This document shows positions 8,370-13,930 of a stretch of 64,000 bases of DNA, one piece after another. The stretch is from Burkholderiales bacterium (GTDB lineage: Bacteria; Pseudomonadota; Gammaproteobacteria; Burkholderiales; Ga0077523): positions 1 to 64,000 of the forward strand of contig JAIESW010000010.1 of the NCBI GenBank assembly GCA_019745565.1, given 5' to 3'. Positions within the stretch are counted from its first letter, which is position 1. Every line of letters starts with the position of its first letter. The notes below the pieces were generated by a model that made no database searches, was not told the DNA's origin, and saw only the letters and a program-made list of their open reading frames with translations. The position numbers and the translations under genes were made by a program.

Positions 8370-10412
8370 TCAGGCCGCGCCGCCGATCTCCCGGAGCACC
8401 TCTGCAACCCGGTCCATCGGCGGCAGGCATACAACGCCCCGGCACACCCAGGCGTTGACCACCGGCCCGACGGGTTTGTCCATGACAGCGGGCAGTGGTT
8501 CCTTCGTCTCGGGCAGCGCGATCACCAGGGTCGACGGCGCATAGCTGGCCGCGAGGTCTCGCGACCAGGACGCGAGCGCGGTGGTCGGACCACGCAGCAT
8601 GACGACGGCAGGCGGTTCGAGAAACTCGCCGAGCGCCCGGCTGAAGGTCGCGAAACCGCTCGGCTGTCGCAGCGCCGCCGGGTGGAACAGCCGAAGAGTC
8701 CGCTCCGCTGCCGTCAGATAGCGTGGTTCGCCGATCAGATGGCCGAGGCGTTGCAGGTGCAGGGCCGCCATGCCGTTGCCGGACGGTGTGGCGTTGTCGT
8801 GGCCCGGCTTGGTGCGGAGGATCAGCTGCTCGTGATCGTGGCTGGTGAACCAGAATCCGCCCGCATCGCGATCTTCGAACTGCTCGAGCAGCACGTCGGC
8901 GACGGCGATCGCCCAGTCGAGGTCCTCGCGACGAAACTCGGCCTGCATGAACTCGAGCAGCGCACCCAGCAGGAACGCGTAGTCGTCCAGATAGGCATTG
9001 AGATGGCTGACCCCGTCCTTGTGGGTGGCGAGCAGGCGTCCGTCGCGCCAGAGCGAGGACCGCAAGAAGTCGAGTGCACTGCGCGCCGAAGCGAGCCAAT
9101 CGGACCGATCGAAGACGCGGGCGGCGCGCGCCATGGCTTCGATCATCAGCGCGTTCCAGCTCGCCAGGATCTTGTCGTCGCGGCCAGGATGCACCCTGAG
9201 TTCGCGAGCAGCGAAGAGCTTGGCGCGTGCGCTGTCGAGGAGCGCCGCGCAATCGGCTACCGGGCGGCCGACCGATGCTGCCACCTGGTCGAGATTGCGC
9301 GCGAGACGCAGATGCCAGTGACTGCGCTCGAAGTTGGGCGGGCCATCGAGTCCGTAGCGGACCGCAGCGGCACGATACTCGTCCTCGTTCAGGAGCGACG
9401 CCACCTCGTCCCGATCCCAGACGTGGAACTTGCCTTCCACACCTTCGGCGTCGGCGTCGAGGCTGGAGTAGTAACCGCCGGCGGGCGATTGCATCTCGCG
9501 CATGACCCACACCGCGGTTTCCTCGCACACGCGGCGATACGTCGGATCCCGCGTCAGCAGCCACGCATCCGCATAGAGCCGCAGCAACGGACCGTTGTCG
9601 TAGAGCATCTTCTCGAAGTGGGGAATCTGCCACTCGCCGTCGACGCTGTAGCGGGAGAAGCCACCGCCCAACTGGTCGTAGATGCCGCCTTCGGCCATCT
9701 TCGTCAGCGTATGCAGCACGACGTGCCGCGCATCGGCGTCGCCGCGCGACGCCGACTCCCGCAGCAGGAAGTCGAACTCGAAGGGATGCGGAAACTTCGG
9801 GGCGCCGCCCAATCCCCCGTGCTCAGGATCGAAAGCTCCCTTCAGTTCGCTGCGCACGCCCTCGAGCGAACCCCCATCGAGATCGACACCGACCTGCGGC
9901 GCGGGCGGCACCGTGGTCGCGAGAACCTTCAGCAGTTCGCCGTTCTGCTGGTCGATCTCGGTTCGTTGGGTGCGGTAGGCCTCCGCGACCCGTTCCAACA
10001 GCCCGGTGAAACCCGGCAGGTTGTACCGCGCCGCCTTCGGGAAGTACGTCCCGCCATAAAACGGCTTGCCGTCGGGCGTCAGGAACATGGTGAGCGGCCA
10101 GCCGCCGGCGCGCTGCGTGAGGAGATGGTGCGCCGTCTGGTAGATCTGATCGATGTCGGGCCGCTCTTCGCGATCCACCTTCACGTTCACGAACAGCGCG
10201 TTCATGACCCCGGCGACCTCGGGATCCTCGAACGACTCGTGCGCCATCACGTGGCACCAGTGACAGGCGGAGTAGCCGACCGAAAGCAGGATGGGCTTGT
10301 CCTGCTCACGAGCGCGTCGCAACGCCTCCTCGCCCCACGGATACCAGTCGACCGGATTGTCCGCGTGCTGCTGGAGATAGGGACTGGTCTCGCGGGCGAG
10401 ACGGTTGGGCAT
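8370..10412 (-). CDS. DUF255 thioredoxin-domain protein (YyaL/spermatogenesis-associated protein 20 family)
   Basis: A 680-residue protein with an N-terminal thioredoxin-like domain followed by a large alpha/alpha-barrel of the six-hairpin glycosidase type. The family N-terminus [20 protein letters not shown] opens the protein. The redox pair lies in SACHWCHVM (Cys50, Cys53), and [13 protein letters not shown] and [13 protein letters not shown] are also hallmark blocks. The later [15 protein letters not shown] and [13 protein letters not shown] belong to the barrel. The biochemical role of the family is not established; no signal peptide is seen. The start at 10412 (MPNRLARE) is the family start, and longer in-frame extensions overlap the divergent peroxidase gene. 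Confidence 0.93.
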
Positions 10413-10458
10413 GCTCGGGCTCCGGTGTACGGCGGCCTCAGGGTACCATGCAGCTTCG

Positions 10459-11535
10459 ATGAAACTTACCAGCCGTCGTTCGACGCATTTGCACCAGCGG
10501 TTGGGAGCGATCCTGGCCCTGGTCGCGGCTGCGGGCGCTGCCGGCGCCGATGAGTCTGCGCGATTGGGCTTGCCGGTCCGCGAGATCCCCGTGATCAGTG
10601 AACAATCCGCGGCGCGTATCGAACTCGGCCGCCGCCTGTTCTTCGAGCCGCAGCTCGCCGAGGACGGCGTGATGGCGTGCGCCACGTGCCACATCCCCGA
10701 ACATGCGTTCACGGTGAACGCCGGCACCGTGGCGTTCGGTCGTGGCGGCCAGGCGCTGCGCCGCAATTCGCCGACATTGTTGAACGCCGAGTTGGCATCG
10801 ACGTTCTTCCACGACGGACGCGCCGGCACGCTGGAGGAGCAGGTGTGGTTCCCGCTCCTCAGTCAGACCGAGATGTGGAATCCCTCCGCGGAGAGCGTCG
10901 TCGGTCGTCTGCGCTACCGGCGCGACTACGCGGAACTGTTCCGCCGGGCCTTCGGCGAAGAGGGTGTCACGCGCAAGAACATCGCTGCGGCCATCGCCGC
11001 GTATGAGCGCACTCTCGTGGCTGCGGGATCGCGCTTCGATCGCTGGTTCTACGGCAAGGAAGCAGATGCGCTGACCACCGAAGAGCAGGCCGGCTTCACC
11101 GTTTTCAACTGGAGCGGCTGTAACGCCTGCCACACGGTCGATGCGACTCACGCGACCTTCACCGACAACCGCTTCCGCAACACGGGGGTCGAATGGGCTC
11201 GCATCCGGGGCGAGTTGGGGCCGAAGAAGACGGAACCGGACCTGGGCCGGTTCGAGATTTCAGGGCAACCCGAAGATCGACACGCCTTCCGCACACCAAG
11301 CCTGCGTAACGTCGCGCTCACGGCACCGTACATGCACGACGGGTCGCTGCAGACGTTGCGAGAGGTCGTCGACTGGTACGACCGCGGCGGCAGCACCGAT
11401 CCCCGCAAGGACCCCATGGTGCGCCCGTTGCGGCTGTCGGAGACGCAAAAACGTCAGCTCGAAGCGTTCCTCAGAAGTCTGACGAGCGACAGCGCTGCCG
11501 TTCTGGCACGCACGGCACGTAGCGCTCCACAGTAG
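10459..11535 (+). CDS. Di-haem cytochrome c peroxidase / MauG-family protein
   Basis: A periplasmic di-haem protein of 358 residues. The start at 10459 (MKLTSRRS) gives a basic N-region and a hydrophobic stretch [15 protein letters not shown] that acts as a signal peptide. Two haem c sites are visible, CATCH at residues 74-78 and CNACH at 221-225. Family blocks [57 protein letters not shown] follow the bacterial CcpA/MauG order. Such enzymes reduce H2O2 with electrons from small cytochromes or modify protein residues; which applies here is unknown. The gene diverges from the DUF255 gene and lies upstream of the acyltransferase-hydrolase gene. Confidence 0.92.
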
Positions 11536-11578: not shown

Positions 11579-13930
11579 ATGCATGGGAACCTCACACACC
11601 CTGAAGAGGTCACCACGAAAGGCGAGGCGCCGCTGCAATGCGTGACGCCGCCATCGATCATGGACACCGGCCTCGACTTCCCCCTCAACCCCACTGCCTA
11701 CCAGTGGACGGGGCGCTTCATGCGCTTCCTGCGGCGGGTGCTCAAGGTCAACATCCGGCTGCACCACGACGAGGGGCAGGTGGAAGCGGGCGACATCTTC
11801 GTCTTCAACCACTTCGCGCGTTTCGAAACCTTCATCCCGCAGTACCTGTTCTGGGAGCATTGCGGCGCGCAATGCCGCTCCATCGCCGACCATGATCTCT
11901 TCAAGGGCAACGATCGCTTCGCGTCCTATCTGCAGGGCGTCGGTGCGGTACCGAACGATCATCCGCATCTGCTGAGCCTGCTCGCGGCCGAGGTGCTGCG
12001 CGGCCGCAAGATCATCGTGTTCCCCGAAGGCGGCATGGTGAAGGACCGTCAGGTGCTGGACGGCAGCGGGCAGTACAGCGTGTATTCGCGCAGTGCGCAG
12101 CAGCGTCGCAAGCAGCACAGCGGAGCTGCGGTGATCGCGCTGGCCCTGGAAGTGTTCAAGCAGGCCGTGTTGAGTGCAGCCGACCGCAGGGACCACCGGC
12201 GGCTGGAAGCCTGGTGCGACCTGATCGGCCTGGACAGTCCCGCGCTGCTGATCGGGCGCGCGCGCCGGCCGACACTGATCGTGCCGGCCAACATCACGTT
12301 CTATCCCATGCGCGTCCGCGGCAACCCGCTGCAGGCGGGCGTGGAGTTCTTCAATCGCGGCATCAGCCCACGCATGCGCGAGGAGCTGCTGATCGAGGGC
12401 AACATCCTGCTGCGCGATACCGACATGGATATCCGCCTCGGCAAGCCGCTGCGGCCGGCCAACTTCTGGAGCGAGCGCGAGCGCGAACTCGTCGTGGCCA
12501 GCGCCGACCGCCTCGGCAATCTGCACGATGCCTTCACCACGCATTCGGAGCGCGCCGACAAGCGTCTGTTCGCCAACGCCACGCGCCTACAGGCGGAGCA
12601 GATCCGCGACGCCTACATGCACTCGATGTATCAGCTCGTGTCGATCCACCTGAGCCACCTGGCCGCGCTGATCATCTACGAGCTGCTCGAAGCCGGTCGC
12701 AGCGAAATTCCTGCCGCCGACTTCCATCGCATCCTCTATCTCGCGGTGAAGACGCTGCAGTCGGACAGCACCGTGCACATGCACCGCAGCCTGCGCAACC
12801 CGGAGAACTACGAGGACCTGCCGTTCGGTCGTTGCGCAGGATTGGAACAGTTCCTCACCATCACCACACAGCTCGCCCTGATCGAGCGCACCGACAGCTA
12901 CTACCGCTTCCTGCCGAAGCTCCTCAAGGACCACGGCTTCGATCAGGTGCGCCTGGAGAACCCGGTGGAGGTGTACGCCAACGAGGTGGCGCCGATCCAG
13001 CCGGCGCTGGCCGCGGTGCGCACCGCGATCGAGGACGTCGCAGCGCTGTCGGAGCAACGCCTGGCCGAACTACGGTTCGACGACGCGCGACGCGCCTATG
13101 CGTGGGACCGCAAGCGCTTTCGCAAACAGAAGCATGACGCGATCAACGCCCTGCAGACGCAGAGCGAGGATGCCGAACCGTTCCTGTTCCGCCCGGAGCA
13201 GCCGCGCCGCGTGGGCGTACTGCTGGTGCACGGGTTCCTGGCCTCTCCGGCGGAAGTCCGCGGGTTCGGAGAGGCGCTGAGCCAACAGGGTTACACGACC
13301 CTGGGGGTCCGGCTCAAGGGTCACGGCACTTCCCCCTGGGACTTGCGCTCGCGGAACTGGCACGACTGGCTCGCCTCCGTCCGGCGTGGCTACGAAACGC
13401 TGGCGCCGTTCGTGGACCGTGTCTGCCTCGTAGGCTTCTCCACGGGAGCGTCGCTGTCGCTGCAGCTCGCCACCGAACAGCCCGCCAAACTCGCCGGCAT
13501 CGCCGCGCTCTGCACGCCGCTGCGGTTCAAGAACCGCAACATGGTGTTCGTGCCGTTCGTGCATGGCACCAACCGCCTCGTCAGCGTCGTGCGGGAGGAG
13601 GGCGTGCTCGCGTTCCGGCCGAACCCGTCCGAGCACCCGCACATCAACTACGTGCACATGCCGATCCGCGCGCTGTACGAACTCGGGCGCCTCACCGACA
13701 ACGTGAAGAAGCGCCTGCGCGAGGTGCGGTGTCCGGTGCTCATCGTCCAGGGCGACACGGACCCCATCGTGGAACCCAACAGCGCGCTGCTGCTGCACCG
13801 CGCGCTCGGCACCGACGACAAGCGGATCGTGATGGTGCAGGCACGGCGGCACGGCATTCTCTACAACAACGTCGGGGAGACGTGGCAGGAGATCTTCGGT
13901 TTCCTGGCGCGCTTCGACCTTCCGGCGTAG
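11579..13930 (+). CDS. Two-domain protein: PlsC-like acyltransferase fused to alpha/beta hydrolase
   Basis: A 783-residue single frame. The N-terminal part (about residues 40-330) looks like a glycerophospholipid acyltransferase: NHFARFE (77-83) is a variant of the H-x4-D/E active site, and FPEGG (148-152) matches the acyl-acceptor motif. A middle helical region (about 340-530) I cannot assign. From residue 545 it is an alpha/beta hydrolase of the carboxylesterase/monoacylglycerol lipase type: oxyanion HGF at 551-553, nucleophile GFSTG with Ser621, probable Asp728 in GDTDP and His758 in RRHGILY. It may attach and remove acyl chains of one lipid class, but the substrate is unknown. No signal peptide or clear membrane segment is visible. 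The start is uncertain: neither 11579 nor the next Met at 11660 has a good ribosome site. Confidence 0.85.
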   Translation: MHGNLTHPEEVTTKGEAPLQCVTPPSIMDTGLDFPLNPTAYQWTGRFMRFLRRVLKVNIRLHHDEGQVEAGDIFVFNHFARFETFIPQYLFWEHCGAQCRSIADHDLFKGNDRFASYLQGVGAVPNDHPHLLSLLAAEVLRGRKIIVFPEGGMVKDRQVLDGSGQYSVYSRSAQQRRKQHSGAAVIALALEVFKQAVLSAADRRDHRRLEAWCDLIGLDSPALLIGRARRPTLIVPANITFYPMRVRGNPLQAGVEFFNRGISPRMREELLIEGNILLRDTDMDIRLGKPLRPANFWSERERELVVASADRLGNLHDAFTTHSERADKRLFANATRLQAEQIRDAYMHSMYQLVSIHLSHLAALIIYELLEAGRSEIPAADFHRILYLAVKTLQSDSTVHMHRSLRNPENYEDLPFGRCAGLEQFLTITTQLALIERTDSYYRFLPKLLKDHGFDQVRLENPVEVYANEVAPIQPALAAVRTAIEDVAALSEQRLAELRFDDARRAYAWDRKRFRKQKHDAINALQTQSEDAEPFLFRPEQPRRVGVLLVHGFLASPAEVRGFGEALSQQGYTTLGVRLKGHGTSPWDLRSRNWHDWLASVRRGYETLAPFVDRVCLVGFSTGASLSLQLATEQPAKLAGIAALCTPLRFKNRNMVFVPFVHGTNRLVSVVREEGVLAFRPNPSEHPHINYVHMPIRALYELGRLTDNVKKRLREVRCPVLIVQGDTDPIVEPNSALLLHRALGTDDKRIVMVQARRHGILYNNVGETWQEIFGFLARFDLPA

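Follow-up and report, generated by a model that had tools for sequence, protein, structure and literature searches.

The plant and algal proteins PES1 and PES2 (ELT family) consist of an alpha/beta hydrolase fused to an acyltransferase and have a role in lipid recycling. They are chloroplast proteins in which the hydrolase comes first and an acyltransferase of the DAGAT superfamily (PF03982) last (PMC12526585). The cyanobacterial MFAT Slr2103 is sister to the ELT acyltransferase domain and makes neutral acyl esters; it is reported to be similar to the ELT acyltransferase domain only and has DGAT2-like motifs (PMC12048435, PMC10171310). In Aas, the lysophospholipid acyltransferase/acyl-ACP synthetase of E. 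coli, the acyltransferase stands first and an AMP-forming, fatty-acid-activating domain last (PMC11416262). Aas has neither a hydrolase nor a middle region and activates fatty acids onto ACP. PlsC (1-acyl-sn-glycerol-3-phosphate acyltransferase) usually occurs alone, with approx. 240–300 aa, and bacterial monoacylglycerol lipase and LipS are stand-alone proteins of approx. 250 aa.

The protein described here is encoded in a window of 64,000 nucleotides (the whole stretch of DNA that was analyzed) and is, by the tests made, none of Aas, PES or MFAT. It joins the same two kinds of domain as PES1 and PES2, but PF03982 gave no match in 29 members of the fusion family, which match PF01553 instead. 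The layout of Aas recurs in three of its relatives (L143, L154, L155), whereas the window protein itself has no ligase, as no match to an AMP-binding domain was obtained. Its C-terminal domain shares fold, catalytic triad and 24–28% identity with monoacylglycerol lipase and LipS. With PlsC, its N-terminal domain has the H-x4-D/E and FPEG blocks in common, and with PlsC of the K/NHQSxWET type also the residues following the motif, although the domain falls below the Pfam cut-off. Among open-licence papers, we found no description of this architecture, i.e., of these known enzyme types in this order, with this middle domain and in this genomic setting.

Domain architecture and active sites

The following features were assigned (window coordinates):

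11579–13930, + strand: open reading frame of the acyltransferase-hydrolase fusion, 783 codons, single full-length copy in the genome
11660–13930, + strand: probable real gene, start at Met28, 756 aa; the alignment of the relatives begins here
11783–12061, + strand: PlsC/LPLAT-type acyltransferase core, match to PF01553
11810–11827, + strand: H-x4-E motif (HFARFE); Glu in 67 and His in 66 of 67 sequences
12020–12034, + strand: FPEGG motif; FPEG invariant in 29 relatives
12515–13177, + strand: middle region, mostly helical in the model
13208–13864, + strand: alpha/beta hydrolase, monoacylglycerol-lipase-like (Hydrolase_4), by family match and by likeness in sequence and fold
13439–13441, + strand: catalytic Ser (GFSTG); Ser in 66 of 67 sequences
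13760–13762, + strand: catalytic Asp; Asp in 61 and Glu in 6 of 67 sequences
13850–13852, + strand: catalytic His; His in 67 of 67 sequences

An earlier note on this DNA had read the 783-codon frame as one protein joining a PlsC-like domain to a complete hydrolase, and this fusion is confirmed: the frame is open, 29 relatives keep the full-length order, and the motifs NHFARFE and FPEGG as well as Ser621, Asp728 and His758 are found at the positions named there. In the alignment to relatives, conservation begins at Met28, the equivalent of which is the start Met of several of them, suggesting that the real protein probably comprises 756 aa and starts at window position 11660. Residues are numbered from this Met in the following (adding 27 gives the numbering of the 783-codon frame), so that the triad reads Ser594, Asp701 and His731. 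An N-terminal PlsC/LPLAT-type acyltransferase is followed by approx. 220 helical residues and a C-terminal monoacylglycerol-lipase-like hydrolase. The AlphaFold2 model, calculated with 29 relatives, reached a mean pLDDT of 84.8 and a pTM of 0.84.

The match of PF01553 to the window protein (residues 42–134) is weak, with 17.4 bits against a cut-off of 23, but the cut-off is exceeded in the relatives L026 (44.3 bits), L028 (42.0 bits), L050 (29.0 bits) and L020 (23.5 bits). The H-x4-E and FPEG motifs belong to the best-conserved positions of the protein, and mean column identity is 67% in the acyltransferase region versus 56% in the middle region. A Foldseek search with the whole model against viral structures returned acyltransferases of Tupanvirus, ChoanoV1 (Mimiviridae) and Yasminevirus with e-values of 2e-6 to 5e-5. 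These matches support an LPLAT fold of the modeled N-terminal part without proving it, because the aligned stretches are not displayed. Lack of this fold, also named beforehand as speaking against the first domain, was addressed indirectly, through the family scores, the motifs and this whole-protein search. The PDB list from the fold search with the whole model was filled by hydrolases, a PDB sequence search using the N-terminal profile yielded chance matches only, and the N-terminal half predicted from the single sequence, i.e., without alignment, had a pLDDT of 34, too low to be of use.

The glutamate in H-x4-E had been regarded as a departure from the standard H-x4-D motif. This does not hold, as 15 Glu versus 13 Asp were counted among 28 clearly read PlsC motifs from the best PF01553 matches of the sampled genomes (two spurious script reads left out), a count that is no estimate of frequency and includes several Glu cases from one family. 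One of the Glu cases (KHQSAWET) is encoded in the window’s own genome. An unusual active site was consequently rejected, H-x4-E being common in ordinary PlsC.

Hydrolase_4 matches residues 517–735 (544–762 in the 783-codon frame) with an e-value of 2.8e-21 and 76 bits against a cut-off of 27, and is found in 29 of 29 members. The closest proteins are bacterial monoacylglycerol lipases by sequence and LipS and monoacylglycerol lipase by fold. The triad, claimed to be complete from the single sequence, is intact in the window protein and conserved among the relatives, the acid being Asp or Glu in 67 of 67 sequences. A stand-alone hydrolase of 309 aa (L051, open frame 315) is close kin of the hydrolase half (e-value of 7e-53), and a hydrolase of this type is a possible source of the fused domain.

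For the region between the domains, the note had given approx. 200 helical residues; residues 286–506, approx. 220 in number, are confidently modeled as mostly helical with a short two-strand element (pLDDT largely 85–95). No match of the residues between the domains to Pfam families or PDB sequences was found. Inspection by eye had suggested the C-terminal part of PlsB/GPAT, which was rejected after profile-profile comparison with seven PlsB-type proteins (probability 0.6%); PF19277, the GPAT C-terminal region, has no match in the window’s own genome.

Distribution and conservation of the fusion

Scanning bacterial and archaeal genomes revealed 29 loci with the full-length architecture at 30–93% identity, and in total 66 relatives with the same domain order were found. 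Whole-genome searches detected the fusion in 5 of 12 genomes of the window’s genus, 19 of 274 genomes of its class and 31 of 120 genomes of one order outside the class. At the level of the phylum, 6 of 398 genomes had matches at E ≤ 1e-40, one of them a stand-alone hydrolase (open frame 315). A profile of the N-terminal half gave five matches in the 398 genomes, all of them in frames of >740 codons; therefore, no acyltransferase half lacking the hydrolase turned up in this set. Plasmids searched with the first 503 residues gave no match. A frameshift or stop between the domains, named beforehand as an observation that would speak against the fusion, was seen in none of the relatives, nor did any fusion contain internal stops. 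As judged from the sequences, the fusion is conserved across many Proteobacteria and not due to chance, since the domain order is maintained, without internal stops, in 29 relatives with identities as low as 30%.

Across the 67 sequences, both the acyltransferase motif and the hydrolase triad are nearly invariant. Two relatives have one altered site each: in L159, located within a fad operon, the hydrolase Ser is replaced by Gly (GFGTG) and the acyltransferase motif is retained, whereas in L130 the acyltransferase His is replaced by Tyr and the hydrolase triad is retained. Thus, the two activities are not retained jointly in every relative.

Two sequences from records named for other phyla, L008 (Polarisedimenticolaceae, Acidobacteriota) and L016 (Nitrospinota), group in the tree with sequences of the Sedimenticola type and of other Pseudomonadota, a placement that points to wrong binning or recent transfer.

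Genomic linkage to beta-oxidation and fusion to an acyl-CoA ligase

Genes of beta-oxidation were found within approx. 6 kb of the fusion gene in 17 of 39 carrier loci versus 0 of 40 control regions. The carriers are 39 further loci with up to 6 kb on each side, and the controls are 40 stretches of approx. 14 kb, placed arbitrarily in some of the genomes that supplied the carriers; neighbor proteins from the first carrier loci (among them L025, L016 and L050) served as queries. These counts are not independent, as the carriers are mutually related, and the short length of some contigs makes neighbors harder to find. L139 is the same place as L050, and also has a fadA match not from itself. Linkage was seen in 11 of 20 loci from the order outside the class and in 6 of 19 loci from the window’s class.

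In genomes of the order outside the class, the genes usually run fusion-fadD-fadA-fadB-fadE on one strand with small gaps. The fusion gene and fadD overlap by 4 bp in L149 and L157, and the fusion gene and fadA overlap by 4 bp in L136 and are separated by 1 bp in L025, where fadA-fadB-fadE lie directly 3′ of the fusion gene. In L142, approx. 2 kb separate the fusion gene from fadD, and in L153 fadD alone is within reach. Elsewhere, a long-chain acyl-CoA ligase gene overlaps the fusion gene (L016) or an acyl-CoA dehydrogenase gene precedes it (L050). No beta-oxidation genes are present in the 64-kb window, nor were such neighbors found in the stretches read for the window’s group, Sedimenticola and many other carriers.

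In three relatives (L143, L154, L155), the frame continues without a stop to 1,286–1,349 codons as extracted (approx. 1,300 aa) and contains, after the hydrolase, a complete AMP-binding domain together with AMP-binding_C. In the tree, L143 is placed apart from the sister pair L154 and L155, which suggests that FadD probably joined the fusion twice, independently; this tree contains long branches, however, and support is weak for several of its deep branches.

In eight Sedimenticola loci (L012, L014, L015, L017, L018, L019, L011, L029), genes for an acetyl-CoA synthetase, a DNA polymerase III epsilon-like exonuclease and a DUF294/CBS/cNMP protein precede the fusion gene in conserved order. As these loci are closely related, they were counted as a single event.

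One neighbor of the window gene was considered to lie outside the system:

10405–11535, + strand: MauG/MbnH-like di-haem peroxidase, next to the fusion gene in close relatives only

Its frame scores 239 bits with the NCBIfam MbnH-family model, below the cut-off of 363. The earlier note had pointed to this gene, but it adjoins the fusion gene only in two relatives of approx. 92–93% identity, in which the whole block is syntenic, and does not adjoin it in a relative of 75% identity or at any other locus. With adjacency confined to the two closest, syntenic relatives, a functional link to the peroxidase was rejected.

Proposed function and alternative explanations

The computation yielded the identity of the domains, conserved active sites, a conserved fusion, and linkage or fusion to genes of fatty-acid activation and beta-oxidation; the substrates, the direction of flux and the service of both domains in one cycle are what we infer. 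Our preferred reading, to which we give slightly less than an even chance, is a lipid-turnover enzyme at the branch between burning and re-esterifying fatty acids. The enzyme would be soluble or membrane-peripheral, and its C-terminal hydrolase would remove an acyl chain from a glycerolipid, at best guess monoacylglycerol or lysophospholipid. FadD, whose gene adjoins that of the fusion or, in three genomes, is part of it, would activate the freed fatty acid. The resulting acyl-CoA could enter the FadE/FadB/FadA pathway of the same operon, or the N-terminal PlsC-type domain could return its acyl chain to an acceptor lipid. In the window’s own lineage, the activating and oxidizing enzymes would have to act in trans. 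The most far-reaching form of this proposal is on the doubtful side: an undescribed family, composed of acyltransferase, a new helical domain, lipase and with or without acyl-CoA ligase, would head a beta-oxidation operon and carry out deacylation, activation and reacylation, such that freed fatty acids either undergo oxidation or go back into lipids. Lipid remodeling, as suggested in the earlier note, is plausible and is strengthened by the linkage to FadD and beta-oxidation and by the triple fusion, and the same ester may be both made and broken.

An ester synthase resembling plant PES/ELT is an unlikely alternative; its acyltransferase would make a neutral ester (of the acylglycerol, wax or quinol type) from an acyl group provided by the hydrolase, either directly or through transacylation. 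PES1 and PES2 join the same two domain types in one chain (PMC12526585), and LipS, the closest fold match, also synthesizes long-chain esters in vitro (PMC3480424). Moreover, WS/DGAT had no match in ten carrier genomes in a search without positive control, so another enzyme would be needed. However, the order of the domains is reversed, the acyltransferase is of the PlsC and not the DAGAT type, and the genomic linkage is to a degradative pathway, beta-oxidation. This same linkage would also suit a purely catabolic lipase, whose hydrolase feeds beta-oxidation and whose PlsC-like domain is non-catalytic and binds lipid or regulates; the sub-threshold PlsC score of the window protein and L130, with its hydrolase triad and without the acyltransferase His, fit such a role. 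We nevertheless consider it distinctly improbable, as few residues of the protein are conserved as strongly as H-x4-E and FPEG, and L159 shows the reverse loss, keeping the acyltransferase motif when the hydrolase Ser is gone.

Since the adjoining genes make and consume acyl-CoA, the protein might instead handle acyl-CoA overflow, with the hydrolase acting as a thioesterase and the acyltransferase as a second sink for surplus acyl-CoA. The nearest characterized hydrolases, however, are acylglycerol lipases or esterases rather than acyl-CoA thioesterases, and there is little to be expected from this explanation. The idea of a functionally meaningless fusion, arisen by chance in this genome or through misassembly, can practically be dismissed given 66 other sequences of the same architecture without internal stops.

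If the preferred reading, a lipid-turnover enzyme, is true, one bacterial polypeptide or operon would couple the breakdown of lipids to the activation and re-esterification of fatty acids; in E. coli, this cycle is divided among separate phospholipases, Aas and the fad genes. The conserved helical middle domain would then gain a function, and the independent in-frame fusion of the ligase makes the functional link directly testable.

Finally, two further proteins are of note. In the window’s own genome (C94), a 763-codon open frame (L066) has a PlsC-type match and is a possible second acyltransferase fusion. The Yasminevirus protein A0A5K0U997 (BFVD, 1281 aa, annotated as acyltransferase) aligns to the whole fusion in Foldseek over 801 columns, and may combine acyltransferase and hydrolase, too.
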